Shown one piece after another: positions 39,314 through 63,443 of a DNA stretch of 64,000 nucleotides. A program made the translations under genes and the position numbers. The notes under the pieces are model-generated. The model was given only the letters and a program-made list of their open reading frames with translations. It did not search any database and was not told where the DNA came from. This DNA is from Candidatus Rifleibacterium amylolyticum (GTDB lineage Bacteria > Muiribacteriota > Ozemobacteria > Ozemobacterales > Ozemobacteraceae): assembly GCA_009917695.1 (NCBI GenBank), contig JAACJG010000012.1, forward strand, positions 62,001 through 126,000. The letters run 5' to 3'. Positions within the stretch are counted from its first letter, which is position 1. Each line of letters opens with the position of its first letter.

Positions 39314-39349
39314 TTTTATCGACAAACTCTGTTTTAGAGGTAAGTGCGG

Positions 39350-40540
39350 ATGCGTGGCTTAAACCATATAACTTTTTCTGTCAGTGATCTTGATAAGTCT
39401 TTCTGTTTCTATGAGAGTATTCTTGGATTGCGCCCGGTTGCAAGACTGAAACACTGTGCATATTTTCTCGCTGGCAACCTCTGGCTGGCCATCGTTCACG
39501 AATCAGATTTGGCCAAATCTTCACGGGATGACTATACGCATGTTGCCTTTGATTGCAGTAGCGAAGAATTTGCTGGCCTTAAGGAAAAACTGCTGGCATC
39601 TGGTTGCCGGGAATGGTCGGTGAACCATTCCGAAGGCGATTCGTTCTACTTTACCGATCCTGATGGCCATAAGCTTGAAATTCACATTGGGGATCTGCAA
39701 TCACGGCTGAATGCAATCAGGGGCAATCAGGACGTACATATCTACGAGCCTGATCGATTTCTACAGTCGGTTGCAGATGAGGTGCCGGCGATTCTTGAAT
39801 TTGACCCTGATAAGCCGGCATTCATAGAGCCTTCCAGAGTGTTGAAGCGACTTGAAAAAATGCCTGAGCACTGTGTTGTCTGCTTCTTCAATGATGTCAT
39901 TGCCAGCCTTGAAAAGCAGGGTCGTCTTGAACTGATTACGCAGTTGAAATCTGAGATTGGCTACAATCCTGTTTATCTGATAAAGAATCTTGCCATGCCC
40001 GTTGCCCTTCTTCACCCGGGCGTTGGTGCACCTCTTGCCGCCGGATTTATCGAAGAAGCTATCGCACTGGGCGCCAGTCGCTTTATAGCCTGTGGCGGCG
40101 CGGGTTCGCTCGCAGCCTCACATCAGGTCGGCAAGCTTATCGTTCCGACATTTGCTGTCAGAGACGAGGGCACTTCCTATCACTATATGAGCCATGAGAT
40201 ACAAGCTGTTCCGACTGCCGCTGCTTTAAGTGCCGTTGTCGCAACGCTCGAGGGCCACAGCGTCGATTATGAATGTGCCGGAACCTGGACCACCGACGGG
40301 ATATATCGTGAAACTCGCAAAAAGATCGAAGATAAGAGAAAAATGGGCTGCAGCTGCGTCGAAATGGAAGCCGCAGCGCTCTTTGCCGTAGCGCGCTTCA
40401 GAAATGTCGAGATGGCTCAAATTCTTTATGCCGGCGATGATCTCAGCGGCGAATTCTGGGACTCAAGAAACTGGCATAGTCGAACCGATATTCGCGAAAG
40501 ACTTCTCGAGCTTGCCATTGAAGCCTGCCTCAAAATTTGA
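39350..40540 (+). CDS. Fusion of FosA-like VOC domain and nucleoside phosphorylase domain
   Basis: A 396-residue two-domain protein. Residues about 1-125 form a vicinal-oxygen-chelate domain strikingly like FosA fosfomycin transferase. The three metal ligands seem kept: His in GLNHITF, His in YTHVAF and Glu in HKLEIHIGD; SEGDSFYF also matches. The lysine that in FosA precedes this stretch is serine here (EWSVNHSEG). Residues about 150-396 resemble the PNP_UDP_1 nucleoside phosphorylase family: GGAGSLAASHQVG, VRDEGTSYHY, TTDGIYRET and CVEMEAAALFAVA. The ATG at 39350 is preferred over GTG 39344 for ribosome-site spacing. The fused function is unknown. Confidence 0.82.
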   Translation: MRGLNHITFSVSDLDKSFCFYESILGLRPVARLKHCAYFLAGNLWLAIVHESDLAKSSRDDYTHVAFDCSSEEFAGLKEKLLASGCREWSVNHSEGDSFYFTDPDGHKLEIHIGDLQSRLNAIRGNQDVHIYEPDRFLQSVADEVPAILEFDPDKPAFIEPSRVLKRLEKMPEHCVVCFFNDVIASLEKQGRLELITQLKSEIGYNPVYLIKNLAMPVALLHPGVGAPLAAGFIEEAIALGASRFIACGGAGSLAASHQVGKLIVPTFAVRDEGTSYHYMSHEIQAVPTAAALSAVVATLEGHSVDYECAGTWTTDGIYRETRKKIEDKRKMGCSCVEMEAAALFAVARFRNVEMAQILYAGDDLSGEFWDSRNWHSRTDIRERLLELAIEACLKI

Positions 40541-42929: not shown

Positions 42930-45809
42930 GTGGAGTGTGGACATAGCTTGAGAGCACAGGTGACAAGGTTATTAAATGTTTTTTATAATGTTGTCCTGCT
43001 CATTATTCTGCCTCTTGTGGTGCTGCATTGGGCCGCTGAAACTCATTTTGCCGTGCAGCTTAAAGAAAAGGAAGCGGCGATCGAGAAGTCTCTGAGTTCG
43101 GCATTGTTCAAGATCGAGCCATTCCGTGATGATCGTAGATTCTTTCACTCTTTTTTGCAGAAGAAATTCAACACTGCCGAAGCAGCTGAAGACAATGGCG
43201 CCGGGTTTTATGCCGCAGTGAAAAAGATTTTTGGCGGTCGCGCCAAAGTCATTAACTGTGATGAAAATGGCAATGTCATAGCTGAATTAAGTGATGAGAA
43301 GCGGTTCGGCTATCTGATGAAAAAAATGGTGCAGGCTGTTCATGCCATCAAGAAAGAGCAGAGCCTGAAAAGTGCGGTACTGCCATCACGTATCGAACTG
43401 GTCTCAAGTAATATAGAATTGTTGCGCCGATATTTTGGCGAATTTTTAACTGCAGATGTAATGGATCGCCCACTTCGCTCCGGTCTGGCAGGCGAAGCCC
43501 TTTTTGTCAGCAATGATGCAGATAAGGGCTTTCTATGGTATCAGGCTGGGAAGAAATTCTCAGTTATCTGCATTCTGCACTCTTCTTTGAAAGGGAAGCA
43601 TATTGGCCTTGAAACCATTTCAAGGCAGATAGAAAGCGCTCATGGCGTCAAAACCGGCTATTTTTCGGTGAAAGATGAAAAGCTTTTTGCTCCCTGGCTG
43701 CATCAGCATAATGAATTTCTCATCGAAAAAGAAAAATTCACCAATGCCAGTTTTTATCTGCAAAAAGGAAAAGATTTCTACTGGCATTTTCGTCAGGCCA
43801 GCCCTGATCTTTTTATCTTTTCTGCTATTCCGCGAGAAACCAGCCCTGTGAAAAGCAGATACCAGATTGCCTGGTTTCTGGGAGTGGGAAGGTATCTTTT
43901 GATTATCCTGTTCGTGGCCTATTGCGCTTCATTGCGCTACCGATTCGAGCTTTCGATGAGGTTGAGGCTGGTTCTGATCGTCGGCTTTTCGACGGGCCTG
44001 CCGCTGTTGCTGCTTATCAGCTCATGTTATGAGTATTTTAATTTTCAGAAGACCAATCTTATCTTTCAACGTCACAATCAATCAATGGAAATGATGAGAG
44101 AGCTGGATCGGCGGTATCTTTCTTATCAAAATGAGCTTGCTGAAAGTTTAAACCAGTTTCTTGAAGACTATCAGAAGCGCTATGGAAACGCAGAATGGCA
44201 ATCTGCAGTAATTGATGATTTCAAGACTGAAACCGCCAGTTTCTCTGCCTCTGAATATCTGCTGGTAAAACCTGAAGAAGGCACCTATTTTACAGGTGGC
44301 ACCCGACTTGATGAGACGACAAAAAGTAAGATTGACATGATTTGTTCCAGTATTTTATCGGCTCTGAACAAGTCTGCTGTCGCTGCGGAATCATACGGTA
44401 GCATTTCGCTGAGCGGCTTTGCCAATGAATATGATTTAACGACCAATCTGCTCAAGGATGTCGGGAAAATATCCGAGCGCAATCTGGGTGGCGGCAACAG
44501 AATGACCTATATGAATTTTCTCGGCGACAGAAACAACAATAGATGTTGGGCATTTCTGGTCATGACATGGGATCGTTCCGTTCTGCAGGAACTTTTTCTG
44601 GATAAATATCTGGCGCGTTTTAATGAAGAATTTGCTCCAGGAACCCTTTTGAAAATTGAGAATTCGGGTTTTCAGCAGTCTTTGACCACGCAGAAGATGG
44701 CGTTGTCGCTGCAGGAGATATATGAAATGGCCCGCAGAGATAAGTTTTCGTTTGCAGATGATGTTATTGTTGATGGTAAAAGTCATATCGTTTCAGCGAT
44801 GAGCCCTTTTCATCTGGACGAATTCATTCTTGCGGCAGCGTTCCCGTCTCAGCCTCTCTTCATACAGATTTACCATCTGGCGCAGCAGGTGGCAGTGGGG
44901 GCATTTCTGGTTGCTTTAACAGTTCTGCTTGTTGCTTTGCGTTTCTCAACCAGGATGTTCAGCCCTCTTATCCAGATACGCGAAGGACTTGTGGAAATTC
45001 AAAAGAGAAATTTTCGCAAGCGCTTGAATGTCGTGGATGAATCTGAGCTGGGTGAACTGGCTCAGGCAGTGAATAAAGCCATTGAGAGCATGGCAGATCT
45101 ATCGCTGGGAACATCGGTTCAGGCCGCTCTGCTTCCTCCAGCGGTCATGCGCGGGCCGGCCTATGAAATCCACTCCGAAGTAAGATACATGACTTCGATG
45201 GGTGGCGATTTCTGTGACTATTACGAGTTCGCTGACCGACTGCATATCGCTTTTGGTGATGTGGCCGGGCATGGTATTCCCGCTGCCCTGATCATGGCTA
45301 TGGTAAAAGCATTTCTGCCTGAAAACAGATTGCCGCCAGGCAAATTTCTGGAAAACTGTAACGAAGTTTTTCTCTATCTTCTCAAAAGAAAATGGCGCCG
45401 CATGATGACTCTTGCAAGTCTGCAGGTATGTCTGAAGACCGGAAAAGCTCAACTGGCCAATGCCGGACATTGTTACCCGATTCTCATCGATGTTGAAAAA
45501 AAATCGGCTGAATACATTGTAGCCAAAGGAATGCCGCTTGGATCAAGGCAATTGAAAGAATACGAAGAGGTTCAGCTTGTTATCAGGCCGGGCTGCATGC
45601 TTCTTTTTTATTCAGACGGCTTCATTGAAGATACCGATCAGACTGATACTCCTTTTGGGTTTGAAAACTTTCTGAAGCTGGTTCAGAGTCTGGCGGCAAA
45701 TTCGCCAGCAGAACTGATCAAAGCTTTGTTCATGGCAAATAATGCTTGGACTAAGGAGCAGAAAGACGATTTAAGTCTGCTTTGTGTGAGGTATACCGGG
45801 AATGACTGA
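42930..45809 (+). CDS. Membrane SpoIIE-type PP2C phosphatase with HAMP (first of tandem pair)
   Basis: About 959 residues. The start is uncertain: GTG at 42930 or TTG at 42948, both near a GGTGGAG site. A first membrane helix lies at about 17-35. A sensor region follows, then helices around 312-330 and 348-365, a second sensor region and a helix near 655-677. HAMP covers about 678-730 and a SpoIIE phosphatase domain about 755-957. Catalytic acidic residues are seen in SMGGDFCDYYEF, FGDVAGHGIPAA, FYSDGFIED and EQKDDLSLL. It overlaps the next phosphatase gene by 8 bp, so the two are co-translated. No STAS or kinase partner lies beside it. Confidence 0.85.
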   Translation: MECGHSLRAQVTRLLNVFYNVVLLIILPLVVLHWAAETHFAVQLKEKEAAIEKSLSSALFKIEPFRDDRRFFHSFLQKKFNTAEAAEDNGAGFYAAVKKIFGGRAKVINCDENGNVIAELSDEKRFGYLMKKMVQAVHAIKKEQSLKSAVLPSRIELVSSNIELLRRYFGEFLTADVMDRPLRSGLAGEALFVSNDADKGFLWYQAGKKFSVICILHSSLKGKHIGLETISRQIESAHGVKTGYFSVKDEKLFAPWLHQHNEFLIEKEKFTNASFYLQKGKDFYWHFRQASPDLFIFSAIPRETSPVKSRYQIAWFLGVGRYLLIILFVAYCASLRYRFELSMRLRLVLIVGFSTGLPLLLLISSCYEYFNFQKTNLIFQRHNQSMEMMRELDRRYLSYQNELAESLNQFLEDYQKRYGNAEWQSAVIDDFKTETASFSASEYLLVKPEEGTYFTGGTRLDETTKSKIDMICSSILSALNKSAVAAESYGSISLSGFANEYDLTTNLLKDVGKISERNLGGGNRMTYMNFLGDRNNNRCWAFLVMTWDRSVLQELFLDKYLARFNEEFAPGTLLKIENSGFQQSLTTQKMALSLQEIYEMARRDKFSFADDVIVDGKSHIVSAMSPFHLDEFILAAAFPSQPLFIQIYHLAQQVAVGAFLVALTVLLVALRFSTRMFSPLIQIREGLVEIQKRNFRKRLNVVDESELGELAQAVNKAIESMADLSLGTSVQAALLPPAVMRGPAYEIHSEVRYMTSMGGDFCDYYEFADRLHIAFGDVAGHGIPAALIMAMVKAFLPENRLPPGKFLENCNEVFLYLLKRKWRRMMTLASLQVCLKTGKAQLANAGHCYPILIDVEKKSAEYIVAKGMPLGSRQLKEYEEVQLVIRPGCMLLFYSDGFIEDTDQTDTPFGFENFLKLVQSLAANSPAELIKALFMANNAWTKEQKDDLSLLCVRYTGND

Positions 45810-48705
45810 TCTTATCAGGCGACTGCTGCAAAGCAGGAGTATCAGAATACTTCTGCTGACCAATATACCGGTTTTTCTGGTATATGTCGGTCTGATTCTG
45901 ATAAATCAGAGAATGCAGGATCGCGAAATTGACGATTCTGTCGTCAGGCTTAAAACGGAATGTGAGGCCCTTGCTGATTCTGTAGTAAACACTGAGCATT
46001 TTATCTGTTCCAGACTGCGTGATATGTTCTGGGCAAACTGGCAGAATCCCCAGCGTTTACACTCCAGTTTCTCTGAATTTCTTGTTCAGAACAAGCTTGA
46101 CGCTGAATTGATCGCCTGGGATCAATCAAGAAAAGTAGTCTTTTGCAATTTTGATTATCAAAGCAAACAGGAACAGTGGCAGCGCGCCATAGCCTTGCTG
46201 TCAGATTTTCACAGAGGTGTTAAATACGCCCGGGATGAAGATATTCCGGCAGATGAATTGCTCAATCTGCGTAAACTGCTGGGAAACCTGGTTTTTGCAA
46301 GGCAGATGTACGGCTGCGCAAACCCCAGTTCACCAATTCTGGCGGCGACTTCTTTTTCTCAGGAGGCGCATAAACTCTGGTTTCATGTTTTTAACGATGT
46401 CGGGATAATTGTTTTTCTGAAACCCGCGCGAATAAATGACTTTTCTGCAGTTAGAAGCGAGCTTGAAAGGCAAAGATCCGAACACCAGCTGTTCAGATTT
46501 TTTCACTACCGCAAGGGGCGGGTTTTCCCGGATTCAAAAGATAATGAATGGCTGCAGTCCCTCTGCCAAAAGATTTCGGGTAACTTTAAAAAGTTGTATG
46601 AACACGGCAGTAATACTCTTTATTGCTCGTATTTGAGCGAGGATGAAATGCTGATCGGGGTTTTTGATCGTACTCCTCTGCTGCAAAAGGATTTTTTTGC
46701 AGAACGAAAGAGCCTGTTGATTGGGCTGGCAGCTTTTACCAATCTGCTCGCCATCTTTCTTTTCATTCTTGTGCCGGTCAGCTTTTATAACAGCCTTAAG
46801 ACAAGGCTGCTGGTTTTATTTGCTGCTTCAAGCATGCTGCCTTTATTGGCTTTTGCGGTCATCGCCTTTGATTATGTTCAGGAATACCGCGGTGCCAGAA
46901 TTGCTGAAATTAACCGGGTCAGCCTGCGCTTTCTGCAGAAGATCGACGAGGGAACCGGTCTGGCTTATTCAGATCAGATTAATACCCTGCGCAAATATCT
47001 GCCGGTATTGCAGAAAGACCTTAGGGAAAATGGTATCAGCAAAGGAGTCATAAGCAGATTTCTGGCCGGTCAGAAGCCTGAACTGCGGGGCTTTTTCCTG
47101 GTTGGCAGTCAGACCTCAGAAATAGGCTGTGAAGACGCTGTTTTTAACAGAAGCGGGGTTGTTGAACTCATTGACAACGAAGAGAATAGTCCCCCGCATC
47201 CCGCAAAGAAAACTCAGGCAAAGGCTACGGATATTGTTTTTAAAAGCTTTCTGGCGACTATGAATAAAACGTCGGTAAGCGATAAACAGGGGCTGGAAGC
47301 TGAAATGGTTTTTGATTCGATCGGTCAGACAGACAAATTTGTGCTTGTTCAGAGCTATTTTGAAACTCTTGATGGCGTCTGGAAATATGGCTTTGGCAGA
47401 AATATGTATCCCAGCTACATAACTTTGCTGAAGAGTGAGCACTACGATTATAACCTCATTGCCATGCTTGACGAAGAGGAGCTGGCCATGCATTTTGCCG
47501 AAAAGACGATAGATAAATTGAGCAGAAATCCCTTTGGCATCAAGATTTTACTCAAGGTCAGCCATCATTATTTTCCGCATGAGATCGAAAATGATTTTAA
47601 AACCAGATATCAGCTCGACATCATTACCGAAGCGAAGTCCGGCAGTTCATCGATTATAGATTTCAATGGCGAGGGCCATCTTGCCATTGCTCTGCACGGC
47701 TTCCATAATCGGGAACTTGATCTGATGGCTCTTTTCCCGCTTGCTGAAATTGAAAGATCGGTGCAGGCCCTTTCCTTCAATTTCTGGCTGGCAGGCATTC
47801 TCAGCGCCATGGTAGTTCTCAGCCTGAGCCTGCTGATCTCGCGAACGGTTACCGAACCAATCGGCCACCTGAGAAAAGGCGTCAACGCTCTGCATGATCG
47901 CAATTTCCGCTATCGTTTGCCTGACCTGGGAAGAAACGAGTTCGGGCATCTGGCAGAAATGTTCAATCAGACGCTCAGCGACATGGATGAGCTGCAGGTT
48001 GCCAGTCTGGTTCAGGAAAAGCTGATCCCACAGTTTGAAGAAGATCAGCACTGGCACGATATCTGTTTCTTCGGTCGTACCGAGTCGCTTGACGACCTGG
48101 GCGGCGATTACTTCGATCAGGTTGAGACAGATGATGGAAAGATCGGATTTTTACTGGGAGATGTTGCCGGGCATGGGGTGGCGGCTTCATTGCTGGTTGC
48201 TTTTGTAAAGGCAGCCGTCTTAAGGCTGAAGCTTTTTTATGCAGAGCCGCAGACCTTTTTTAACGAGCTCAATCGCCTGTTTCGCCAGACCAAGGATAAG
48301 AGACAACAAAAATTCATGTCGTTGCAATACACGGTTTTTGCAAAAGACAGCCAGGAGTTTTCTTTTATCAATGCGGGTCATTGCTTTCCGGTTCGGGTTG
48401 ATCCGGTGCGGGGTGAGACAGAGCTTTTGCAGATGATTTCTTCGCCTCTGGGCACCAGCAGAAAAGATTATCCGCCACCAATGATGTATGAGCTGACCGC
48501 TGGCCAGGCGCTGGTAATGTACAGCGACGGTTATGTGGAAATGCCCGGCATGAGCTTTGAGTTGTTTCAAAGCATTCTGCTGCAATGTTATGATTCTTCA
48601 CCACAGCAATATTTTATCAATGTGAATCAGCATCTTACCCGGCAAGGCTATATTCAGGCCGGAGACGATAAAACCCTGCTGATCATTCTGCGCAAGAAAG
48701 TCTGA
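45802..48705 (+). CDS. Membrane SpoIIE-type PP2C phosphatase with HAMP (second of tandem pair)
   Basis: 967 residues with the same architecture as its neighbour: a membrane helix at about 15-35, a sensor region, helices around 307-327 and 333-352, another sensor region and a helix near 660-682. HAMP follows (about 683-735) and a SpoIIE phosphatase domain ends the chain (about 750-965). Metal-site residues are in DLGGDYFDQV, LGDVAGHGVAAS, MYSDGYVEM and the terminal AGDDKTLLII. The two proteins are paralogues with low similarity in the sensor regions, which suggests different signals feeding one target. The start ATG lies inside the end of the preceding gene. Confidence 0.85.
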   Translation: MTDLIRRLLQSRSIRILLLTNIPVFLVYVGLILINQRMQDREIDDSVVRLKTECEALADSVVNTEHFICSRLRDMFWANWQNPQRLHSSFSEFLVQNKLDAELIAWDQSRKVVFCNFDYQSKQEQWQRAIALLSDFHRGVKYARDEDIPADELLNLRKLLGNLVFARQMYGCANPSSPILAATSFSQEAHKLWFHVFNDVGIIVFLKPARINDFSAVRSELERQRSEHQLFRFFHYRKGRVFPDSKDNEWLQSLCQKISGNFKKLYEHGSNTLYCSYLSEDEMLIGVFDRTPLLQKDFFAERKSLLIGLAAFTNLLAIFLFILVPVSFYNSLKTRLLVLFAASSMLPLLAFAVIAFDYVQEYRGARIAEINRVSLRFLQKIDEGTGLAYSDQINTLRKYLPVLQKDLRENGISKGVISRFLAGQKPELRGFFLVGSQTSEIGCEDAVFNRSGVVELIDNEENSPPHPAKKTQAKATDIVFKSFLATMNKTSVSDKQGLEAEMVFDSIGQTDKFVLVQSYFETLDGVWKYGFGRNMYPSYITLLKSEHYDYNLIAMLDEEELAMHFAEKTIDKLSRNPFGIKILLKVSHHYFPHEIENDFKTRYQLDIITEAKSGSSSIIDFNGEGHLAIALHGFHNRELDLMALFPLAEIERSVQALSFNFWLAGILSAMVVLSLSLLISRTVTEPIGHLRKGVNALHDRNFRYRLPDLGRNEFGHLAEMFNQTLSDMDELQVASLVQEKLIPQFEEDQHWHDICFFGRTESLDDLGGDYFDQVETDDGKIGFLLGDVAGHGVAASLLVAFVKAAVLRLKLFYAEPQTFFNELNRLFRQTKDKRQQKFMSLQYTVFAKDSQEFSFINAGHCFPVRVDPVRGETELLQMISSPLGTSRKDYPPPMMYELTAGQALVMYSDGYVEMPGMSFELFQSILLQCYDSSPQQYFINVNQHLTRQGYIQAGDDKTLLIILRKKV

Positions 48706-49041
48706 ACTGCCGCTCGCCTGATCTGATAGTCAAGGTCATGCGACCCCCCTGATAAATATTGCACCCCCACTTTCTTGAGAATTGCCGGGTTTACTAACAC
48801 TTTTGTTGACAGGTTCGGATAAATATCTTAGAGTCTTTCCGAAGGCTTATTTATAGACTATAAATACAGGGTTGCGAATCTAGAATGTCATTATCAGCTC
48901 CTTACGGCCAAAAACCATTTCAATGTGCGCTTTTTCAGCAAGGTTCAAGAGTAAAGAGTCTGATCCCCCCGAATTCAAAATCATTCATTTCAGAAAAAAT
49001 CTCTGTGTACACGATTTCTTTTATGCAAAAACTCTGATTGT
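48706..49041 (+). promoter_or_regulatory. Intergenic region with candidate promoter for the citrate-synthase-like cluster
   Basis: 336 bp without a convincing gene. A perfect TTGACA (48806-48811) is followed after 17 bp by TAGAGT (48829-48834), a weak -10. Initiation there would leave a leader of more than 200 nt before the first gene. A short dyad of TTTATAGACTATAAA type is near 48850. No terminator for the phosphatase pair was recognised. Confidence 0.35.
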
Positions 49042-49053
49042 ATGGAGGCAAAA

Positions 49054-49812
49054 GTGACTGCGATAAAGACAAGGATCTGGAAGGAAGAATCTGTTGCCGG
49101 CAACGAATTTGCACCGGAACAGTCTTTTTTATACGGCCAGAATTTCTTTTCAAATCTGGCAGAGAAACAAAGCTGTCTGGCATTGACCTTTCTGCACCTG
49201 AATGGGCAGCTGCCGACGGCTCATCAGGAGAAGTGGCTGGGTTTTCTTCTCAACCTTTCAGCAAACCCCGGAATAAGAGATGAATCGTCTCTGGTCGCGA
49301 TGAATACCGCTATTGGTTCGCCGCCATCGGTTAATTCAGTTCTGGCTGGGCTTATGGCACGTAGCGGCATTAACCGGGGTGCTCAGTGGATTGAAAAGGT
49401 TATGGATAATCTGCTTCTGGCAGAGCGCGAAAGCGCCGCTCTTGCCAGCTTTCGGCCTTATAACGGCCTGGGCAGGCATTACGACGATTTCGACCGCCGA
49501 GCGAAGGCGGCGATCCCCTGGCTGAAGGCCGGTTCCTGCTGGGGAAAACACTGCGAACTGCTGGAAAGCCAGGCAACTCCTGAAGAAGCAATTCTACTCG
49601 AAGGATTGATCGCAGCTGGATTGCTCGATCTCGGCTTTTCTCCTGCGGCCGGCGCGGTTTTGTTTCTGCTGGCGGCGGGGCCGGCTTTGGCGGCCTATGC
49701 TATTGAGCAGCAGGCACTCGGATACAAGAATTTTCCGCATTATTTTGCACCGGGCCATTACTTTCATTCTGGCGCCAGCCCTGATCAGGAAAATGAAACG
49801 GAGACAGATTGA
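49054..49812 (+). CDS. Degenerate citrate-synthase-like protein A
   Basis: A 252-residue protein if started at GTG 49054, which follows GGAGG at 5 nt; an ATG at 49042 is upstream of that site. The pattern is that of a short citrate synthase or citryl-CoA lyase: YGQNFFSNLAEKQSCLALTFL near the start, NGLGRHYDDFDRRAK where the family has GFGHPVYKxxDPRAK, and EGLIAAGLLDLGFSP where it has VDGxxAAxLLDLGFPP. The catalytic histidine of GFGH is arginine (though the next residue is His) and the catalytic aspartate appears to be glutamate. It may bind an acyl-CoA without normal synthase chemistry. The next gene is 3 bp downstream. Confidence 0.62.
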   Translation: MTAIKTRIWKEESVAGNEFAPEQSFLYGQNFFSNLAEKQSCLALTFLHLNGQLPTAHQEKWLGFLLNLSANPGIRDESSLVAMNTAIGSPPSVNSVLAGLMARSGINRGAQWIEKVMDNLLLAERESAALASFRPYNGLGRHYDDFDRRAKAAIPWLKAGSCWGKHCELLESQATPEEAILLEGLIAAGLLDLGFSPAAGAVLFLLAAGPALAAYAIEQQALGYKNFPHYFAPGHYFHSGASPDQENETETD

Positions 49813-49815
49813 GTC

Positions 49816-50625
49816 ATGTCAGTAAAAGCATCCGATCGTGATATCGCAACCCTCAGACTCTGGCAGCAGAAGGCATATTCTGACCTGGGGGGTGTCAACC
49901 CTGATCAGAGCGTTACGCTGGCAGGGCATAATCTTTTCTCAGAACTGGTTGGCAACCTGTCGCTGGCCGCCTGTTTCCATCTATATGTTAAAAAAACTCT
50001 GCCGTCGCCGCAGGTTGAAAGACTGCTTTCGGCAATTGTTACTGCAACCGTATATCCTGACATCAGAATCTGGCCGAACCGGGCGGTGGCGTTTTGTGCT
50101 TCGGCAGGAACCGGAAACGCAGCCGGTGTCGCAAGCGGAATGCTTGGCATGGAGGGTTTGATGTTTGGTGGTGATTGTGTCGCCGAGAGCTTCCGGTTTA
50201 TCCGTGATTTAATGGCTGCTGAAGAAAATGGACTTTCAATAGAGAGCCAGATTGAAAAGGCTAAAGAGAGAAATCAGAAAATTCCTGGATTCGGAAGGCC
50301 GATAGTTAAAGGCGATGAAAGGCTTAAACCAATTTTGCAGGTTGCCAGGGAAGTTGGCCTGGATGATGGCTTATTTCTATCATTTGGACGCAGAGTAGAG
50401 GTTCTACTCGACAAAGAGTTTGGCATCAGGTTTAACGTTGCAGCCCTGATTGCTTGTTTGTTGGGAGATATGGACTACACGCTATCCGAGGTCAGAGCAT
50501 TTGGCACCCTTTTTCCGATGATATCGTTCTTAGGTGTGTTTCATGAGCATTCTCGACCTGACGCCAGACCGGTGTTTCCTCTTGCGATCAGCGATATAGA
50601 GTATATTGGAGAGCAAGTGCCATGA
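49816..50625 (+). CDS. Degenerate citrate-synthase-like protein B
   Basis: A 269-residue protein related to citrate synthase/citryl-CoA lyase, and distantly to protein A. IPGFGRPIVKGDERLKPILQ (about 155-174) aligns with the GFGHP-KGDPRA motif, with arginine for the catalytic histidine. MFGGDC stands where LHGGAN normally supplies another histidine. NVAALIACLLGDMDY replaces NVDxxxAxLLxDLGF, losing the catalytic aspartate. The fold appears kept while the three usual catalytic residues are gone. It starts 3 bp after protein A and its last 4 bp overlap the thiamine-diphosphate enzyme gene. A heteromeric A/B complex is a reasonable inference. Confidence 0.65.
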   Translation: MSVKASDRDIATLRLWQQKAYSDLGGVNPDQSVTLAGHNLFSELVGNLSLAACFHLYVKKTLPSPQVERLLSAIVTATVYPDIRIWPNRAVAFCASAGTGNAAGVASGMLGMEGLMFGGDCVAESFRFIRDLMAAEENGLSIESQIEKAKERNQKIPGFGRPIVKGDERLKPILQVAREVGLDDGLFLSFGRRVEVLLDKEFGIRFNVAALIACLLGDMDYTLSEVRAFGTLFPMISFLGVFHEHSRPDARPVFPLAISDIEYIGEQVP

Positions 50626-52343
50626 ATTGTGCAGAACAACTGACAAAGCTGCTGCAGAGTGAGGGAGTTAAGTATATCTTCGGAGTTCCGGGCGCTCCTT
50701 TAATGCCACTTTTTCATGCTCTCGACCGCCCGAATTGCCATATAAAACCGATTATTGCCAAGCATGAGGCGGGTGGCGCCTTTATGGCGGATGGCTACGC
50801 GCGTGTTTCCGGGTGTCTTGGCGTGTGTTGCGGAACGGCCGGCCCGGGCACGACAAATCTGGTCACTGGCGTTGCCGTCAGTTTCAAAGATTCAATTCCA
50901 CTTCTGGTTCTCACTGCTCAGGTTCCGCTCAATGTTTTTGGCAAGGGTGCAACCCAGGAAAGTTCGGCCGAAGACAGATCGTTTTCGTCTGCCGAGCTGC
51001 TCAAGCCATTGACCAAATACAGCGCCATGATCATGACCCCCGAGCACCTCACTTTTTTTGCAAGAAAAGCGGTAAGAAACGCTCTCAGGCATCGTATGGG
51101 ACCGACCCATCTAAATCTCCCTCCAGACGTGATGCGCCGACCCAGCTCTTCTGACGGCACTCTCATGGAAATGTTCAAGGACGATGCCAGATATTTTGAC
51201 CGGGCCAAGGTAAAAGAAGCGGCTCAGGCAATCTTACAGGCAAAAAAGCCGGTTATATTTGCCGGGTTTGGCGTTATTCTTTCCAATGCGACCCAGAAGC
51301 TGCTTGAGCTGGCCGAACTGCTATGCATTCCCGTTGCTTCGACTCCAAAGGGCAAGGGCAGCTTTCCTGAAAGCCACCCGCTTGCTCTGGGAGTAATGGG
51401 CCTGGCTGGCTCTGAAGCGGCTGAAGAGAAAATTCTGGCTCCCGACAACTCTGACCTGATGATTGCGATAGGCATGAGTTTTGATGAGTGGAGCACCAAC
51501 AGCTGGGATCCCGGAATCAAGGGCACGAAAAAACTGATTCACCTCGATATAGACCCACAGCAGATTGGCAAGAATTATTCGGCCAATATTGCCCTTATCG
51601 GCGATGCCAAAACCGTGATTTCAGAGCTTCTTTATGAAATAAGACGGCAAAGCGAGCAGACCGACTTTGTTCCTGCCAGATCTCAGAAGGCGCAGACTTC
51701 GGTTTATGGCAATCTGCTTAACTCTTCAGAGACTGAGCAGATGTTGTCTGATAGCGTCCCGATCAAGCCGCAGAGGCTGATTCATGAGCTGCGCAAATCT
51801 CTTCCAGATGAAACCATCTTTTTCATCGACGCCGGCAATCACACACTCTGGGCTCTGCATTATCTTCAGATAAATCAGCCGGGAACTTTCGTCATTGCAG
51901 CAGGCTTCGGTCCGATGGGTTATTCAATTCCCGCAGCGATTGGCGGGAAGCTTGCCGCCGGCAGTCGGCCGGTTGTCGCACTCTGCGGCGATGGCTGCTT
52001 CCTGATGCATGGCATGGAAGTGGCAACGGCAGTCAAATACAATATTCCCGTCATCTGGGTGGTTTTTAACGATGGCCGTCTGAACATGGTTTATCAGGCA
52101 GAGCAGCTGCAGAGCCGGGGTGGTCTGGAAAGCTACGAGTTTCCAAGACTTGATATCGCTGCGGTGGCGATTTCACTTGGAGCCATCGGTGAAAGAGTCA
52201 ATCGACCTGACCAGATCAAAGGTGTGATTGAAAAGTGTTTGAAAGCGAACCAGCCTGCGGTGATCGATGTTATAATCGATCCTGAAGAAGTCTCGCCACT
52301 CAAAAAACGGATCGAAGCGATACTAAAGAACATGAAAGCCTGA
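50622..52343 (+). CDS. Thiamine-diphosphate-dependent enzyme of the acetolactate synthase family
   Basis: A 573-residue enzyme with the three-domain plan of acetolactate synthase, oxalyl-CoA decarboxylase and 2-hydroxyacyl-CoA lyase. The cofactor-activating glutamate is in AKHEAGGAFMADGYA (about 46-60). The central domain covers about 190-320. The ThDP-Mg motif is CGDGCFLMHGMEVATAVKYN (about 451-470), followed by NDGRLNM. It overlaps citrate-synthase-like gene B by 4 bp (ATGA). No small regulatory subunit or other ilv genes are nearby, which argues against a standard branched-chain role. A CoA-ester or 2-oxoacid substrate is suggested by the neighbours only. Confidence 0.85.
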   Translation: MNCAEQLTKLLQSEGVKYIFGVPGAPLMPLFHALDRPNCHIKPIIAKHEAGGAFMADGYARVSGCLGVCCGTAGPGTTNLVTGVAVSFKDSIPLLVLTAQVPLNVFGKGATQESSAEDRSFSSAELLKPLTKYSAMIMTPEHLTFFARKAVRNALRHRMGPTHLNLPPDVMRRPSSSDGTLMEMFKDDARYFDRAKVKEAAQAILQAKKPVIFAGFGVILSNATQKLLELAELLCIPVASTPKGKGSFPESHPLALGVMGLAGSEAAEEKILAPDNSDLMIAIGMSFDEWSTNSWDPGIKGTKKLIHLDIDPQQIGKNYSANIALIGDAKTVISELLYEIRRQSEQTDFVPARSQKAQTSVYGNLLNSSETEQMLSDSVPIKPQRLIHELRKSLPDETIFFIDAGNHTLWALHYLQINQPGTFVIAAGFGPMGYSIPAAIGGKLAAGSRPVVALCGDGCFLMHGMEVATAVKYNIPVIWVVFNDGRLNMVYQAEQLQSRGGLESYEFPRLDIAAVAISLGAIGERVNRPDQIKGVIEKCLKANQPAVIDVIIDPEEVSPLKKRIEAILKNMKA

Positions 52344-52346
52344 GCT

Positions 52347-54200
52347 ATGACCTTGAAAGACAGTTTACAGCAAGCAAATGAAGAGCTGTGGGTTCTTTCG
52401 AAGATTATTCGCAATGTTTCCGGCAAAGTTCAGGTTGATGATTTTTTGCAGGAAATCGTTGAGGACGCGCGCCGCTACATCGGGATGGATTCGCTGAACA
52501 TCGGTTTAATTTCCAAGACCTCGCAATGTCTTGAGCCTCTGTGGGTAAGCGGCATTTCGCCGCAGCTGGCGCGTCGGAATTTTCCGAAAATTCCCCTGGC
52601 AAACACTGAGGACATCGCAATAAAGTGTCTGAACGATAAAAAAATGATTTGCGTATCCGACGTGAAGTCTAATTCCAGCGTTCATGATGATATAAAGACT
52701 CTGGCAGCAGGCGTGTCTTTTATACTGATGCCTTTGATTGTTGATGACAGTGCAATTGGGCTGGTCGGTTTTGTTAACAACGTCTCAAGGCATGAAATTG
52801 AAGCCGAGACCATTCAGCGTTACCAGCGCTTTGTCGATACGCTTGCCATGTTTTTTAACAATTCGCAGATATATGCTGAGCTGGAACTGCTGAAACAGAG
52901 CCTTGAACGTCAGGTAGAAGAGAGAACTGCCGATCTCAGGCAGGCACACGAAACCATCTGGGATGTAAAAGAAAACCTTTCAGCAATAATTGAAAATTCT
53001 ACCGTTGGTATTATCGCAACCGATCCAGTTGGGGTGATCAGAGTCTTTAACCGCGCAGCCGGCGAGATTCTCGGCACCAGGCTTGGTTTGTTGTCTGAAC
53101 CCCGCATCAGTTGCATTATCGGCCCCGACCTCATGCGCAGGATTTCAGAGGCAAATGCTGGCGAGGCTCATGACGGCAATGTAATATGCAGAAACTTTGA
53201 AACTGAGCTTTTGCGTGGCGGCGAGCCGTCAGAGACCTCAGAGCCTGTACCGGTGAGCCTCTCGGCTGTGCGGCTGAAAAGTCGAGAAGGTAGCGTAACT
53301 GGCTATGTCTATGTTTTTCAGGATATCCGTGAAGTCAGGTTCCTTGAGACCAAGCTTATTCAGGCTGAAAAGCTCAAAATGATCGGCCAGATGGCGGCCG
53401 GGATTTCGCATGAGTTAAATACGCCGCTCTCTATGATAAAGGCTTCTGCAGCTGTGATCAAACAGGCGGAGAATGGCCTTCATAGTGATATGGTTGCAAA
53501 GCATCTGGGCTTCATCAATGATGCGGTGGGTCGGGCATCTACATTTGTGCATGATTTTCTCAAGCTCGCCAAACCCACGGCAAACCACTGCCAGAAAGCC
53601 GAGATTGCAGATGTAATCAATAAGGCAAACGAGCTTTTCCGACTCAAGTCTCATAGAAAAAGCGTCGATTTTGTCAATTCAGTTGAAGATAACCTGCCGC
53701 CAGTCTATTGTGATGTGAATAAAATCATTCAGGTTCTTATCAACCTTTATGACAATGCGGTTGATGCCATGGGCGGGCAGGGAGAAATTGCAGTTAAGGT
53801 GCTTTGTCGTGAACTTCTGCCCGCTGATGTTCAGTCAGAAGAGCAATTGAAGCGTCGGGCCGGCGACTCGCCGAGAAGTATACTGATGAATTATCGAAAT
53901 TTTCACCTGCATGATCTCTACAAGCTGCCACCGGTTTTTGAGCCCGGCGACAGAATCATTCAAATAGAAGTGACAGATAAAGGTTCTGGCATGTCTCAAG
54001 GCTTGATTGAGCAGGTTTTCGACCCATTTTTTTCTACAAAAGCGGGAAATGGCAATGGCCTTGGCCTGACCATTTCGCAGCGAATAATCAAGGAGCACAA
54101 AGGCTCTATTTCACTGAGTTCTATTCCGGATAAAGGTACAACAGCGACGATAAAGCTGCCAACTTATCAGACAATGATCAGATTTGAAAGGATGGTCTAG
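52347..54200 (+). CDS. GAF-PAS sensor histidine kinase
   Basis: A 617-residue cytosolic kinase. A GAF domain covers about residues 15-175, a coiled coil about 176-210 (LERQVEERTADLRQAHE) and a PAS domain about 213-330. HisKA follows with the phosphoryl-accepting histidine in GISHELNTPLSM (about residue 355). The HATPase domain has an N box (NLYDNAVDAMGG), a G1 box (DKGSGM), an F box (DPFFSTKAG) and a G2 box (GNGLGLTI). It starts 3 bp after the thiamine enzyme and abuts the receiver-kinase gene, so the five genes appear to be one operon. Confidence 0.9.
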   Translation: MTLKDSLQQANEELWVLSKIIRNVSGKVQVDDFLQEIVEDARRYIGMDSLNIGLISKTSQCLEPLWVSGISPQLARRNFPKIPLANTEDIAIKCLNDKKMICVSDVKSNSSVHDDIKTLAAGVSFILMPLIVDDSAIGLVGFVNNVSRHEIEAETIQRYQRFVDTLAMFFNNSQIYAELELLKQSLERQVEERTADLRQAHETIWDVKENLSAIIENSTVGIIATDPVGVIRVFNRAAGEILGTRLGLLSEPRISCIIGPDLMRRISEANAGEAHDGNVICRNFETELLRGGEPSETSEPVPVSLSAVRLKSREGSVTGYVYVFQDIREVRFLETKLIQAEKLKMIGQMAAGISHELNTPLSMIKASAAVIKQAENGLHSDMVAKHLGFINDAVGRASTFVHDFLKLAKPTANHCQKAEIADVINKANELFRLKSHRKSVDFVNSVEDNLPPVYCDVNKIIQVLINLYDNAVDAMGGQGEIAVKVLCRELLPADVQSEEQLKRRAGDSPRSILMNYRNFHLHDLYKLPPVFEPGDRIIQIEVTDKGSGMSQGLIEQVFDPFFSTKAGNGNGLGLTISQRIIKEHKGSISLSSIPDKGTTATIKLPTYQTMIRFERMV

Positions 54201-55418
54201 ATGATCCAGGACACCAGATTCAACGTTTTGATTGCCGACGATGAGCCCAGGTTTTGCCAAATACTCGAGGATCTGCTGGCGAATGAGAATATTAACATTT
54301 ACAGCGTTTCCACTCCTGAAAATGCTGTAAAGGCCGTTTTAAACTATGACATACATCTGGCTTTGCTTGACAAGCGCTTTCCAACCGACCATGAGGGTGT
54401 TCAAACACTGAGACGGGTAAAAGAACTGAAGCCGGAAACAGAAGTAATAATGATGACTGCCTATCCTGACGCCGAATCAAATCTGGACGCGGTCGCGTTG
54501 GGTGCCTGCTGCTATCTGCAAAAGACTATGGATTATGAGAAAATGCAGGTTGTTCTAAGGCGCCTGCTCGATCGGATTCAGCAGAAAAGGCGAAACATCA
54601 GCCTGATTGCCGAGCTTGAAGAAAGAAACAGGTGGCTTGAGTCAATTTCCGCTACGATAAAGAGTTGGAATGAAAAGCTGGTCAGGCGCGTCAAAGTAGC
54701 CGAGAAGATTGATTTTGCTGGTGAAGACGAAGACAATGAAAAGTATCTGCCACCGGACAACATAGAATTGTTTTCAGTGGCTCTTGTTCATGAACTTAAC
54801 AATCACCTGCAGATCATCAGTGCTGTCATGGAAGAGCTCGCTGATGAGGCAAACATGAACAAGGATGAATTGATTAAAGAGCTTGACGATTCAATCGATC
54901 AGCTTCAAAAAGTTACTGCAAATTATTCGCAGATTTTTGTTGGCGCGGAAAGCAAGAAAAAGTCGCCTGCCGATCTGGAACTGATACTGCATTATGTATT
55001 CAAGTCCGCCTGGCGTCTTGGTCAAAGCAGAGACCTTCAGCTGAAGAGACAGATAGAATTGAACCATCTTAAGATTATGTGCGTATCAAGACTGCTGTCT
55101 GATGCGCTTCTCAATGTCATGAAAAATGCAATCGAAGCTGCGGCTCCTTATGGCAGAGAAGAACATGCCAGTGTCTCGTTGAAGGCATACAAAGAGGATG
55201 CGGAAGTTGTCATCGAAATTGGTAATACTGGCGCGCCGCTTGCAGAGGATGTGCTGAAAAAACTATTCATCGGCATGAGCCAAAAAGAGGGGCATGTCGG
55301 TGTTGGTCTGTGTCTTGCCAGGTATGCGATTGAACAGCATGCTGGAACAATGGAGCTGATAAGAAAAGATGATTGCTGGAACATCTTTCAGATCAGACTG
55401 CCAAAAGCTCAGTCATAA
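54201..55418 (+). CDS. Receiver domain-histidine kinase hybrid
   Basis: A 405-residue protein with an N-terminal receiver (about 6-130): acidic pocket IADDEP, phosphorylatable aspartate in LALLDKRFP (about residue 56), threonine in MMTAYPD and lysine in LQKTMD. A helical linker follows. A HisKA-like segment has VHELNNHLQII (about 195), then HATPase boxes: MKNAIEAAA, EIGNTGAPLAED and VGVGLCLAR. It has no DNA-binding output. It begins directly after the kinase stop. The pair probably relays phosphate from kinase to this receiver, which then controls its own kinase module. Confidence 0.85.
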   Translation: MIQDTRFNVLIADDEPRFCQILEDLLANENINIYSVSTPENAVKAVLNYDIHLALLDKRFPTDHEGVQTLRRVKELKPETEVIMMTAYPDAESNLDAVALGACCYLQKTMDYEKMQVVLRRLLDRIQQKRRNISLIAELEERNRWLESISATIKSWNEKLVRRVKVAEKIDFAGEDEDNEKYLPPDNIELFSVALVHELNNHLQIISAVMEELADEANMNKDELIKELDDSIDQLQKVTANYSQIFVGAESKKKSPADLELILHYVFKSAWRLGQSRDLQLKRQIELNHLKIMCVSRLLSDALLNVMKNAIEAAAPYGREEHASVSLKAYKEDAEVVIEIGNTGAPLAEDVLKKLFIGMSQKEGHVGVGLCLARYAIEQHAGTMELIRKDDCWNIFQIRLPKAQS

Positions 55419-55707
55419 TCTGACTTACTGTTGCAGCTGACCGTGCGGAAACTGTTCGCGGGCGATGGTTACCTCCTCATTTTTGCATGCTTTGTCCGAT
55501 CCTCTAAAACATTTATTCAAGTATTTTATCACATTTTGTTTCGGTAGCTAAAATGGCCCCATTCAGAAACTTATTTATGGCAATCTCGTGCAACGAGATG
55601 GGGAGGTGGCCGAGGGTAAACTTTTGGTTTTTTTGCGACGAAAAGCTGCATTGACTCTGGAAAATGGCTCGTGATACGGTGAAAGTGCAAAAGCAAATTT
55701 CTATCCA
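55419..55707. other. Junction between the operon and the accessory region
   Basis: About 290 bp with no convincing gene. A small hairpin ATCTCGT-GCA-ACGAGAT (55583-55599) is followed by GGGGAGGTGGCCGAG, which looks like the first bases of a tRNA-Ser/Leu but does not continue as a tRNA. No obvious terminator follows the receiver-kinase gene. Gene style changes after this point. Confidence 0.4.
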
Positions 55708-57282
55708 ATGCCTGCAATGGGGGACGAAATGGCTTCAAAAAAAGAATGGACATGGGAGTATTGCGGAACCTGGTTTGGAGTCAAACTTTCCGAGGACGGG
55801 AATAACCTGACCTGGTGGGCGAGCCACGTTAAGGACCTGAAAAGCGGGAAAAAATACGTCGGAAAGCGTTCGCAGTCCGTCGAGAGTTTCAAGAAGAAAG
55901 GTCCCAGTTACGATAACATCACGATCTGGGAGCTGAAAAATCCCGACTATATCGATAACATGTACAACCCCTTCTACAGCGAAGGGGAGCCGGATGAAAT
56001 CGATGGTCCCAGACTGCACCAGATTCCGCAGAACATCCGCATAGAGCTTTGCGAATATTTCGGAGCCGATATGACCAGATGGCCCCCTCCGCCGGATACT
56101 ACAAAGGGCCCGCCCGAATCCCCGGAATCAGTTTCTGAAAAAGACGGTCATGAAGAAGATGCAGAATTTGCGATTTCCCGGATTCCGGATGTTCCATACA
56201 AACCGGCGCTGCCTGGGGGAAAAGACCTTGCGGACCTCGAAGCTCTCTTCAAACGCTTCCCCCGGCTTGCGAACACAATCAAGTCGATGTCATTCTCTGT
56301 GTATCACTTCGGAACTTCTATTCAAAACCGTTTCATTGAAATCGCAGGGGCGGTTCTTTGTCCCGTTCTGAAATCGGAGGCTGATCTCCGCGACCTGATC
56401 GCAGTTTTGAAGGATTCGCGCCAGGCTTTGCGTCAGTGCGGAACCATGGGATTGGATGTGAGCTCAGCTGTGTTCTGGAAGTTCGCCAATGCAAAGCTTG
56501 AATACTCAGACTTGCTGAAAGTCCTGTTCAAAAATTCTCCCGCCCTTGAAAGTCGGTTTACCGCAAATCCCCGGAAAGGGATAAGGATTCTCCTTCTTGA
56601 TGATGAGTTTTTGATGATGACTGTTGTTGAACATTCCCCGATCATCGAAAAGCTTATCAGTACAGATGATGATCTTGATTCATTCGTAGAATTGATGGTG
56701 AGAACGGCGGGAAACAAAAATCTCAACTCGGACCAGATGTTTCAGGCAATGCCAAAACTGTGTTCAATTCTAGATCTGAAAACCGGAAAGGAAGTGTTCG
56801 ATTTCCTGATCGGCTTGATAAAACGCGGAATATACATGCATGGAATGAATGATCCCGCCTGGTTGCATAAATTGAAGCAGCAACACAAGGGAATTCAGAA
56901 TAAGGCGGTTTCCCTGAAAATTCTGACGAGATTGAAAGAGTTCGAGGATGTTTTCGAGTATGCAAAACCCTATCTTTCATCTGATCAGAATGCCAGGAAG
57001 ATCGAGGCAGCGTTTCGGAAAATGTACGGGCATTATTTTGGTTACAGCGATCTTCAGGCGGACATGGAAGGAATGATTCCGCTGGTTTTGAAAATCTGTG
57101 TCCCGCTCGCGAAAAATCTGAGTGATTTCCTGAAGCTGTGCGGCGAAGTTCCCCGACTCGTCGAAGATCTTCCCAGGGATGGGGAATCGACTCCGGTTGG
57201 CTGGACTCACATCTTTGACACAAAGGATCTTGAAGCTCGTGTCAGAAAATCCGGGTCACTGGATGATATCCTGAAGGCATAG
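55708..57282 (+). CDS. Orphan 524-residue protein, function unknown
   Basis: A long soluble protein with no signal peptide or membrane helix. Start options are ATG 55708, 55717 or 55729; the last follows GGGGGA at 4 nt. Residues about 10-120 form a tryptophan- and charge-rich N-terminal region (e.g. WTWEYCGTWFGVKL, TRWPPPPDT). A disordered linker runs about 125-165 and a mainly helical C-terminal domain about 175-520. I see no catalytic motif and recognise no family. Codon and residue style differ from the upstream operon, suggesting acquisition. It sits at the edge of the region with toxin-antitoxin and restriction genes, so a defence role is possible but unsupported. Confidence 0.6.
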   Translation: MPAMGDEMASKKEWTWEYCGTWFGVKLSEDGNNLTWWASHVKDLKSGKKYVGKRSQSVESFKKKGPSYDNITIWELKNPDYIDNMYNPFYSEGEPDEIDGPRLHQIPQNIRIELCEYFGADMTRWPPPPDTTKGPPESPESVSEKDGHEEDAEFAISRIPDVPYKPALPGGKDLADLEALFKRFPRLANTIKSMSFSVYHFGTSIQNRFIEIAGAVLCPVLKSEADLRDLIAVLKDSRQALRQCGTMGLDVSSAVFWKFANAKLEYSDLLKVLFKNSPALESRFTANPRKGIRILLLDDEFLMMTVVEHSPIIEKLISTDDDLDSFVELMVRTAGNKNLNSDQMFQAMPKLCSILDLKTGKEVFDFLIGLIKRGIYMHGMNDPAWLHKLKQQHKGIQNKAVSLKILTRLKEFEDVFEYAKPYLSSDQNARKIEAAFRKMYGHYFGYSDLQADMEGMIPLVLKICVPLAKNLSDFLKLCGEVPRLVEDLPRDGESTPVGWTHIFDTKDLEARVRKSGSLDDILKA

Positions 57283-58218: not shown

Positions 58219-59785
58219 TTATCTTTCTTCAAGGGCTTCCAGTTCGATATCTGTCTGCCGGAGACGCTCGGCAATCACCAAAGCCAGGCGGGCAAAAACC
58301 TTGATTCCGACTATTGTTGATGAGTGGACCATTTTGTCGAATTTTTCCCGGGATAGGGCAAAAAGCTCAACGTCTTCTTTGACCTCAGCGTCCGCAGATC
58401 GGAACCGCCGATCCAGGAAGGAAAGTTCCCCCAGATAACTACCCCGGTCGATGTCAGCCAGATGATGTCGCTTTCCACTTTCCAGTGGCAGGAGAATACT
58501 GATCCGACCACGTCGGACCAGGAAAATTTCGTATCCGGAATCACCCTTGCTGAACAACTTTTCCCCTTTTGCGATAGAAAGTTTCCGAGTACAATCAGCT
58601 AACCCCTTGAAATCCGGTTCTTCAAACTCCCGGAACAAATCGAATTCTTCCATTTCCAGGGGGTTCAGTTCGACAGTGTGCTTGACACCAGCAGCGGTCA
58701 GAATTTCGGTTTCGGCATATTCGAGGGCATTGTTTAAAGTCTCCGAGACCAGTATCGCCTCGGTTTCATCGATAATACCGAGTTGGGCCATATAGTCCTC
58801 GAAATTCCGGCGGTCATGAAGAGATCCCAGCCAGGGTCCCGGATAATGGAGACTGGCCACCGCTGGAAACATTGACGAGGGTGGGGCCCATTGTCCCCGC
58901 ACCCGGCATTCCCCCTGTGAGGAAAGCCCCCAGATTGCCGAACCCCTGTCCCAACAATTCCCGATCGGAATTGTGTCTACTGCGGGTCAAAGCATCGAGT
59001 ACGACGCAGGTTTTCAAAGTATCAATAGAAAGCAGGACTGAAAGGGTTATTGCTGGAACCAGGATTAGTTTTATAGATTGAAGATTGATTGTCAGCAAAG
59101 AGCTGGCCCGCGATGAAACCGCATCCAAAAACGAACCCGAAGTATGAATCGGTCCTACTATCAGGGAATTTCCCTCCAAGACCAGCAGATCTTTCCAGAT
59201 CAGTGACAATCCGAAGTAAGCCGCCATTCCGGCAAAAAGTCCTAACACCGGAGCGGGGATTTTTTTGGTCACCTTTGGCGCTGTAACCATGACAATCATC
59301 GCCACCAGGCCAACGATCAGGCCTGGCCACCTCCAAAGATCGGGGGACGTTAATCCGGTGAGGAGCGGAGTGGCTTTGGAATATCCCAGCAACTTTGGCA
59401 TTTGCCCGATTGCAATAAGGATGCCAACTGCCGACATGTACCCGGTAACAACAGGATAAGGAATGAACTTGATCAACCGCCCACACCCCACCAGACCGTA
59501 AAAGATCTGCAAACCGGCGGCAACCAGAACGATAAGGGCGAGAATGCCCGGGATGGCCTCAGGAGGTATCTGGTGGCCATTTTCTCTGACGAGCTCTGCA
59601 ACCACGGCGGACCCGATTATTCCTGTCATGGCCCCCATTCCTACGTATTTCTGGCCAATCCCGGAATACACCAGAACCCCGAAAGCAATCGCCGAAGGCA
59701 AGGCCACCAGCATCGCCCCAAATCCTCCCCAAAAATCGCCTATCTTCGAAGGGGGGGAAACAGCCTTCATCGTTATTGTACTCAT
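58219..59785 (-). pseudogene. SulP transporter-STAS-cNMP-binding protein gene broken by internal deletion
   Basis: The minus strand encodes the first 323 residues of a SulP anion transporter (start 59785, MSTITMKAVSPP) ending abruptly at SGTLAGISS near 58814. In another frame, the last part of a STAS domain (from about HDRRNFEDYMAQLG) and a complete cyclic-nucleotide-binding domain (GEKLFSKGDSGYEIFLVRRG) run to 58219. The last membrane helices and most of STAS, perhaps 180 residues, are missing between them. The original gene was a SulP-STAS-cNMP fusion; deletion and frameshift at about 58820-58830 have disabled it. The apparent start of the second frame at 58902 is out-of-frame SulP DNA. Confidence 0.75.
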
Positions 59786-63300: not shown

Positions 63301-63443
63301 TAGCCCTGTTTCTTTAAATCCTGAATCAGTTCCCGCTCCAAATCGCCTTCAGTTTGATAGGCTTCACAAACCTTCCACTCTCTGGTGTATTTATCTAAAA
63401 CGATGAAGTTATTGGTTTCTGCAACAGTTTTGTATTCAACCAT
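60345..63443 (-). CDS. hsdR: Type I restriction enzyme R subunit
   Basis: A 1032-residue restriction and translocation subunit. The N-terminal PD-(D/E)xK nuclease is visible as [19 protein letters not shown] (about 149-167). The SF2 helicase motor follows: Walker A TTGSGKT (about 309-315), DEAH box [11 protein letters not shown] (about 405-415), the later motif FTGTPIFP and the C-terminal helicase half with [17 protein letters not shown] helical C-terminal domain binds the methylase. The length is typical of HsdR. Its start overlaps the end of hsdS by 8 bp. All core motifs are intact, so it is probably functional if hsdM lies beyond the window. Confidence 0.95.

Follow-up and report, generated by a model that had tools for sequence, protein, structure and literature searches.

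In a 64,000-nucleotide stretch of the genome of Candidatus Rifleibacterium amylolyticum (contig JAACJG010000012.1, positions 62,001 to 126,000; hereafter the window), five consecutive plus-strand genes, here termed A to E, form an operon that we tentatively read, with slightly less than even confidence, as a small-molecule synthesis-plus-sensing module, in which C would make a compound, A and B would handle it and D and E would sense it. A and B encode two citryl-CoA-lyase-fold proteins, C a predicted thiamine diphosphate (ThDP)-dependent carboligase, D a histidine kinase and E a receiver-domain protein (Table 1). The reading draws on the order and conservation of the genes, the clade to which C belongs, the loss of the catalytic triad from A and B together with their co-variation, and the signalling genes found around relatives of C. 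An original prediction, made from the letters of the window, had described the same plus-strand unit with intergenic gaps of +3, -4, +3 and 0 bp, and both coordinates and spacing are exactly as it gave them; it had further proposed that the products of A, B and C act on or sense a CoA ester or 2-oxo acid to which D and E respond.

The A-B-C-D-E block is no chance arrangement, being kept in six Riflebacteria genomes that represent two genera. Gene order is identical in the window's genus (G001, G002 and G005; in G001 and G005 a contig end falls within or ahead of E) and in a second genus (G010 and G017), where identity to the window proteins amounts to 40-43% for A, 33-34% for B and 57-59% for C, and where additional histidine kinases lie immediately downstream of the block. 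The genes around the block, including those for the SpoIIE phosphatases located upstream in the window, vary between genomes, and the conserved unit is therefore the five genes A to E. These phosphatases, encoded by a tandem of HAMP-SpoIIE genes directly 5' of the operon (42930-45809 and 45802-48705, plus strand, with an 8 bp overlap and long, divergent N-terminal sensor regions), were considered as members of the unit and rejected, since they were not found beside the operon in G002, G010 or G017. Across a sample of 382 genomes, matches to the A family above 200 bits were obtained in ten: the six Riflebacteria, three Wallbacteria (another family within the same phylum in the taxonomy used) and one genome of an unrelated lineage (G162). 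B adjoins A and C lies nearby in all ten, and G162 also has an adjoining kinase. In the Wallbacteria the genes are clustered but rearranged, with D-like and E-like members: in G029 and G034 an E-like gene is divergent from C, and next come genes for a solute-binding protein (SBP_bac_5), A, B, a histidine kinase of the membrane and a regulator resembling NtrC, while G037 has two A-B pairs. Weaker A-family matches (about 120 bits or below) correspond to isolated citryl-CoA-lyase-like genes or to B genes themselves. The distribution is patchy, most other genomes of the host family being without the system. The linkage that the original prediction had asked to be checked in related genomes is hence strong: the five genes are not rare neighbours, and they come with their own kinase pair.

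The protein encoded by C contains all three TPP_enzyme domains, as expected from its prediction as a thiamine enzyme, and its best solved relatives are BbmA (443.6 bits), CsmA (311 bits) and the E. coli acetolactate synthase (ALS; 248.7 bits). In a phylogenetic tree, the relatives of C, BbmA and CsmA (PDB 8x3x, 8x3z) are split at 100/100 from ALS (EcIlvB, EcIlvI, AtALS) and Gcl, and the tight grouping with IlvB/IlvG that would have counted against the original prediction is not seen. BbmA, an enzyme whose activity has been studied, is nested inside the clade of C, with Elusimicrobia-type members, at 100/99, in a tree that leaves many deep branches inside the clade unresolved and in which CsmA forms a long branch; a larger, quick tree was also made. 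The catalytic glutamate (Glu49 in C) is kept in 79 of 79 relatives and the ThDP motif (GDG...N) is near-invariant (Asp457 in 77 of the 79, with two gaps); both are shared with BbmA, CsmA and CybE, members of the same clade, and the FGKGA.QES loop is common to C and BbmA. In ALS, a tryptophan shapes the acceptor pocket. At the column of this residue in E. coli IlvI, C has Ala493, and a glycine is found in BbmA, CsmA and 60 of the 79 relatives (glycine or alanine in 65); the BbmA structure 8xod carries the substitution G484F at that same column. The small residue at the acceptor position suggests that C takes a larger acceptor than ALS does. BbmA and CsmA are homologues of CybE, which carries out the acyloin condensation of two 2-oxo acids into a furanolide alpha-hydroxy-beta-keto acid (PMC12395478), and C probably joins two 2-oxo acids as well. 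BbmA, CsmA and CybE are described as natural-product biosynthetic enzymes with a 3-oxoacyl-acyl carrier protein (ACP) synthase III (KAS III) partner, whereas C shares its operon with the A-B pair, a kinase and a receiver.

The prediction that A and B are both citrate-synthase-like holds, more faintly for A. B matches Pfam Citrate_synt (1.9e-7), while A has no Pfam match and reaches the NCBIfam citryl-CoA lyase model at 4.6e-8, far under its curated cut-off. Both match the citryl-CoA lyase/citrate synthase fold of the ATP-citrate lyase core (PDB 6hxp), A at 2e-10 by sequence and 2.4e-22 by profile and B at 6.9e-13 and 1.5e-27, respectively. The AlphaFold model of A (pLDDT 89.7) has 6hxp as its top Foldseek match (TM 0.76), and that of B (pLDDT 79) aligns to it with a TM of 0.73. 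When aligned to 6hxp, the catalytic His/His/Asp residues of B are found in 0 of 41 homologues at each position, with an arginine at the second-His position in 33 of them; in A, the second His and the Asp are absent from all 32 homologues, and the first His is present in 12 of the 32 and missing from the window protein. The alignments to 6hxp lie at about 22-24% identity and carry some uncertainty, with the GxG(H/R)P and N..G motifs anchoring B unambiguously. B keeps an arginine-rich, substrate-like motif (GFGRP..DER). On the basis of the lost catalytic residues, A and B were rejected as true citryl-CoA lyases, from which they also differ in being two divergent paralogues that occur as a pair. 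Pairwise distances of A and B correlate at r = 0.94 over 29 loci, compared with only 0.57 and 0.55 for A and B versus C. This tight co-variation suggests that A and B probably form a heteromer. The pair illustrates clearly how the citryl-CoA-lyase fold can be retained across phyla despite the loss of the catalytic triad.

A possible role for the A-B pair is suggested by loci at which a KAS III enzyme stands in its place. At two loci (L066 and L116), TonB-KASIII-C replaces the TonB-A-B-C arrangement found in the other nine of the 11 members of that clade, and at a third (L101) kinase-C-KASIII replaces the kinase-C-A'-B order of the myxobacterial-type clade. The KAS III proteins of L066 and L116 carry Cys/His/Asn. 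In the biosynthesis of carbazoles and furanolides, the ThDP enzyme yields an unstable product that a KAS III-like enzyme uses along with an acyl thioester (PMC7466098, PMC12395478, PMC8777810). By analogy, the exchange suggests that A-B may handle the product of C or an acyl-CoA. In the corresponding CqsB3-CqsB1 (carbazole) and CybE-CybF (furanolide) pairs (PMC7466098, PMC12395478), the partner is KAS III-like, not a couple of citryl-CoA-lyase-fold proteins, and signalling genes are not reported as part of them, unlike in the operon studied here. Homology of A and B to CybF was considered and rejected, CybF being a 3-oxoacyl-ACP synthase (PMC8777810).

D is, as predicted, a kinase with GAF and PAS sensors followed by HisKA-HATPase, and its H-box and N and G boxes are conserved among homologues. 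The description of E as a receiver protein without a DNA-binding domain stands as far as the missing DNA-binding domain is concerned; E is not, however, a receiver alone, since a HisKA/HATPase-like half (Pfam HATPase_c, 7.7e-12, with a weak HisKA match) lies beside the receiver. In the second Riflebacteria genus (G010 and G017) this half is degenerate, with the His lost and the G boxes eroded. From its sequence, E is thus more than a bare receiver and best described as a REC-(pseudo)kinase. Together, D and E hold the residues of a two-component pair: the HisKA His and the HATPase domain in D, and the Asp, Thr and Lys of the receiver, which are conserved, in E. Phosphotransfer from D to E is suggested by the order of the two genes. 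A defence-system reading was discarded, as PADLOC returned no match other than a marginal one for E.

The neighbourhoods of C relatives were surveyed by scanning 84,980 species genomes with two peptide patterns, which yielded 80 loci. Both A and B are present at 32 of these, and at ten more B occurs while A is either shortened or absent. In over ten phyla C relatives adjoin signalling genes: signalling domains occur within 6 kb of C at 68 of the 80 loci, and at 42 of the 47 with good flanks. They belong to two-component, STAS/SpoIIE/RsbW and c-di-GMP families, and solute-binding proteins and TonB receptors are found near C as well. Among 33 loci with full flanks, signalling genes lie within 4 kb of C at 29, versus 15 at 6-10 kb on the same contigs (paired sign test, 18 versus 4 discordant loci, p = 0.004, a value that is optimistic because loci within one lineage are not independent). 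The fact that the signalling families differ from lineage to lineage is a stronger argument than this p-value. In Gammaproteobacteria, Zetaproteobacteria, Desulfobulbaceae and Nitrospirota, the modules comprise a TonB receptor, A, B, C, an ABC_sub_bind protein and kinases, often with REC-GGDEF-EAL or YfiR proteins. Myxobacterial-type loci present a kinase, C, a short A and B. Elusimicrobia have no A or B, and show HTH-REC, C and sometimes an O-methyltransferase of natural-product type, SBP_bac_5, a cupin and a dCache-HAMP-GAF-PAS hybrid kinase. In Aerophobetes, Chloroflexi, Verrucomicrobia, Armatimonadetes and archaea, C is accompanied by STAS and by SpoIIE or RsbW-like proteins. The occurrence of C among signalling genes in so many phyla suggests that bacteria have a family of signalling systems, based on small molecules, that has not been described before. 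At five of the loci (L064, L068, L072, L073 and L097), C relatives adjoin genes for STAS anti-sigma-antagonists, several of them with RsbW-like and SpoIIE-like genes; the STAS-linked loci include bacteria and archaeal metagenome-assembled genomes (Methanophagales, Bathyarchaeota and Methanomicrobiales). A viral origin was dismissed, as viral contigs gave a single, unconfirmed pattern match, and a search for a close plasmid match found none.

In the synthesis-plus-sensing module tentatively proposed here, C would join 2-oxo acids into a small-molecule product, and the A-B heteromer, without normal citrate-synthase chemistry, would bind or modify this product or its acyl-CoA co-substrate, a role that a KAS III enzyme would fill in some relatives. 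The kinase D would detect the product, or its A/B-bound form, through its GAF and PAS domains, and would phosphorylate the receiver of E. Since D is soluble in Riflebacteria, detection would be intracellular. CqsA and LqsA, the alpha-hydroxyketone synthases of known signalling systems, are pyridoxal phosphate (PLP) enzymes unrelated to C; C is a ThDP enzyme and hence not a PLP-dependent synthase of the CqsA/LqsA type. The nearest counterparts in layout are nevertheless CqsA/CqsS and LqsA/LqsS/LqsR: there, one synthase lies beside a histidine kinase and receiver and makes an alpha-hydroxyketone read by the kinase (PMC3376566), a class of compound that overlaps with the expected product of C. 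The literature searched, which did not extend to the primary BbmA/CsmA study, yielded no ThDP-made signal of this kind and no match to the present combination of genes, in agreement with the earlier remark that no described system of this kind was known. If the proposal is true, many phyla of the environment, archaea and uncultured lineages among them, would be connected by a chemical class of signals made by thiamine enzymes, and a function would be gained for a clade that now carries the annotation acetolactate synthase. The system can be tested directly, since some of its hosts are in culture (Marinobacter similis, Neptuniibacter marinus, Malonomonas rubra and Hahella sp.).

Several points weigh against this proposal. 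We infer from sequence the activity and substrates of C, the role of A and B, the identity of the product with the ligand and the direction of signalling, and an enzymatic role for A and B is uncertain given that their classical catalytic residues are gone. With D soluble, an extracellular signal would need to enter the cell. The baseline of signalling genes in these genomes is high, as the far flanks indicate (15 of 33), selection by two peptide patterns biases which C relatives appear, and the clade is unevenly sampled. The KAS III exchange is seen at three loci only. Finally, distances of C co-vary moderately with those of A and B (r about 0.55), less than with those of the TonB receptor gene (0.72).

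Two other explanations were weighed, and both appear unlikely. The operon could encode an intracellular metabolite sensor, with non-catalytic A and B sensing an acyl-CoA or 2-oxo acid and controlling C and/or D, and with C as the effector enzyme. The retention of the fold and of the GFGRP..DER motif of B after the loss of the triad, the co-variation of A and B as a pair and a soluble D with GAF and PAS domains would all suit a sensor. Yet C adjoins signalling genes in the absence of A and B in Elusimicrobia, archaea, Chloroflexi and others, so what ties C to signalling in general cannot be A and B, and a KAS III enzyme replaces them at three loci. Because C is found with signalling genes and without A and B in many phyla, the reading in which C makes a ligand for the signalling module is at least as likely as the one in which the trio senses a CoA ester. 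It is similarly doubtful that C, with A and B or KAS III, belongs to a secondary-metabolite or metallophore pathway whose acyloin-derived product is imported via TonB and solute-binding proteins, the kinases being confined to regulation. Such a pathway would agree with the furanolides made by C relatives (PMC12395478), the TonB receptors within 6 kb of C at 28 of the 80 loci and the O-methyltransferase neighbours; against it, TonB receptors were not detected at Riflebacteria, Elusimicrobia or archaeal loci, the conserved Riflebacteria block has no tailoring or assembly-line genes, and GGDEF-EAL, STAS and RsbW proteins recur in the modules.

An ordinary metabolic operon, in which C would supply acetolactate for the synthesis of branched-chain amino acids or of acetoin and the two-component pair would be incidental, is very improbable: C does match acetolactate synthase models, with 428.8 bits to TIGR00118, but this is under the 538 cut-off of that model and below every NCBIfam ALS cut-off shown, and the 100/100 split from ALS and the small residue in place of the acceptor tryptophan point the other way. 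Ketol-acid reductoisomerase (KARI) and dihydroxy-acid dehydratase (DHAD) were searched for in the host genome and neither was found, whereas 14 of 14 control genomes were positive; a search of the same genome for a second enzyme of the family of C found none. KARI is missing from five of the seven genomes with the A-B-C trio. With no KARI, no DHAD and C as the sole enzyme of its family, a role of C in branched-chain amino acid synthesis is excluded for the host genome, within its completeness of 95.6%, and an ordinary acetolactate synthase for amino-acid synthesis is refuted.

The features of the operon are collected in Table 1. The start codon of A is a GTG at 49054. Riboswitches and other known RNAs were looked for in the operon region, and none was found.

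Table 1. Genes and flanking signals of the five-gene operon (window positions).
Feature	Coordinates	Strand	Description
Gene A	49054..49812	+	Citryl-CoA-lyase-fold protein, catalytic residues lost
Gene B	49816..50625	+	Citryl-CoA-lyase-fold protein, probable partner of A; likewise without the catalytic residues
Gene C	50622..52343	+	Predicted ThDP-dependent carboligase; member of the alpha-hydroxy-beta-keto acid synthase clade (BbmA/CsmA/CybE)
Gene D	52347..54200	+	Soluble GAF-PAS-HisKA-HATPase histidine kinase
Gene E	54201..55418	+	Receiver domain, then HisKA/HATPase-like half; without DNA-binding domain
Ribosome-binding site of A (GGAGG)	49044..49048	+	Read from sequence
Sigma-70-like promoter candidate 5' of the operon (TTGACA-17-TAGAGT)	48806..48834	+	Weak; 10/12 consensus matches, promoter-like matches in the region being no commoner than in shuffled sequence
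Terminator-like stem-loop 3' of the operon	55608..55629	+	Consensus match only

Other features of the window were recorded in passing. Downstream of the operon, a 524-aa open reading frame (55708-57282, plus strand) has no significant family match in Pfam or NCBIfam. It is followed by sulfate-permease and cyclic-nucleotide-binding reading frames on the minus strand (58219-58902 and 58814-59785) that overlap in different frames and are possibly one frameshifted gene, and by the R subunit of a type I restriction enzyme (60345-63443, minus strand; PADLOC REase_I, 1488 bits). On the other side of the operon, an N-terminal glyoxalase/VOC domain (PF00903) is fused to a nucleoside-phosphorylase-superfamily domain (PF01048) in a plus-strand gene (39344-40540), and two adjacent full-length GroEL (Cpn60) genes on the minus strand (34398-36026 and 36435-38099) lie upstream of an hrcA-grpE-dnaK-dnaJ cluster.

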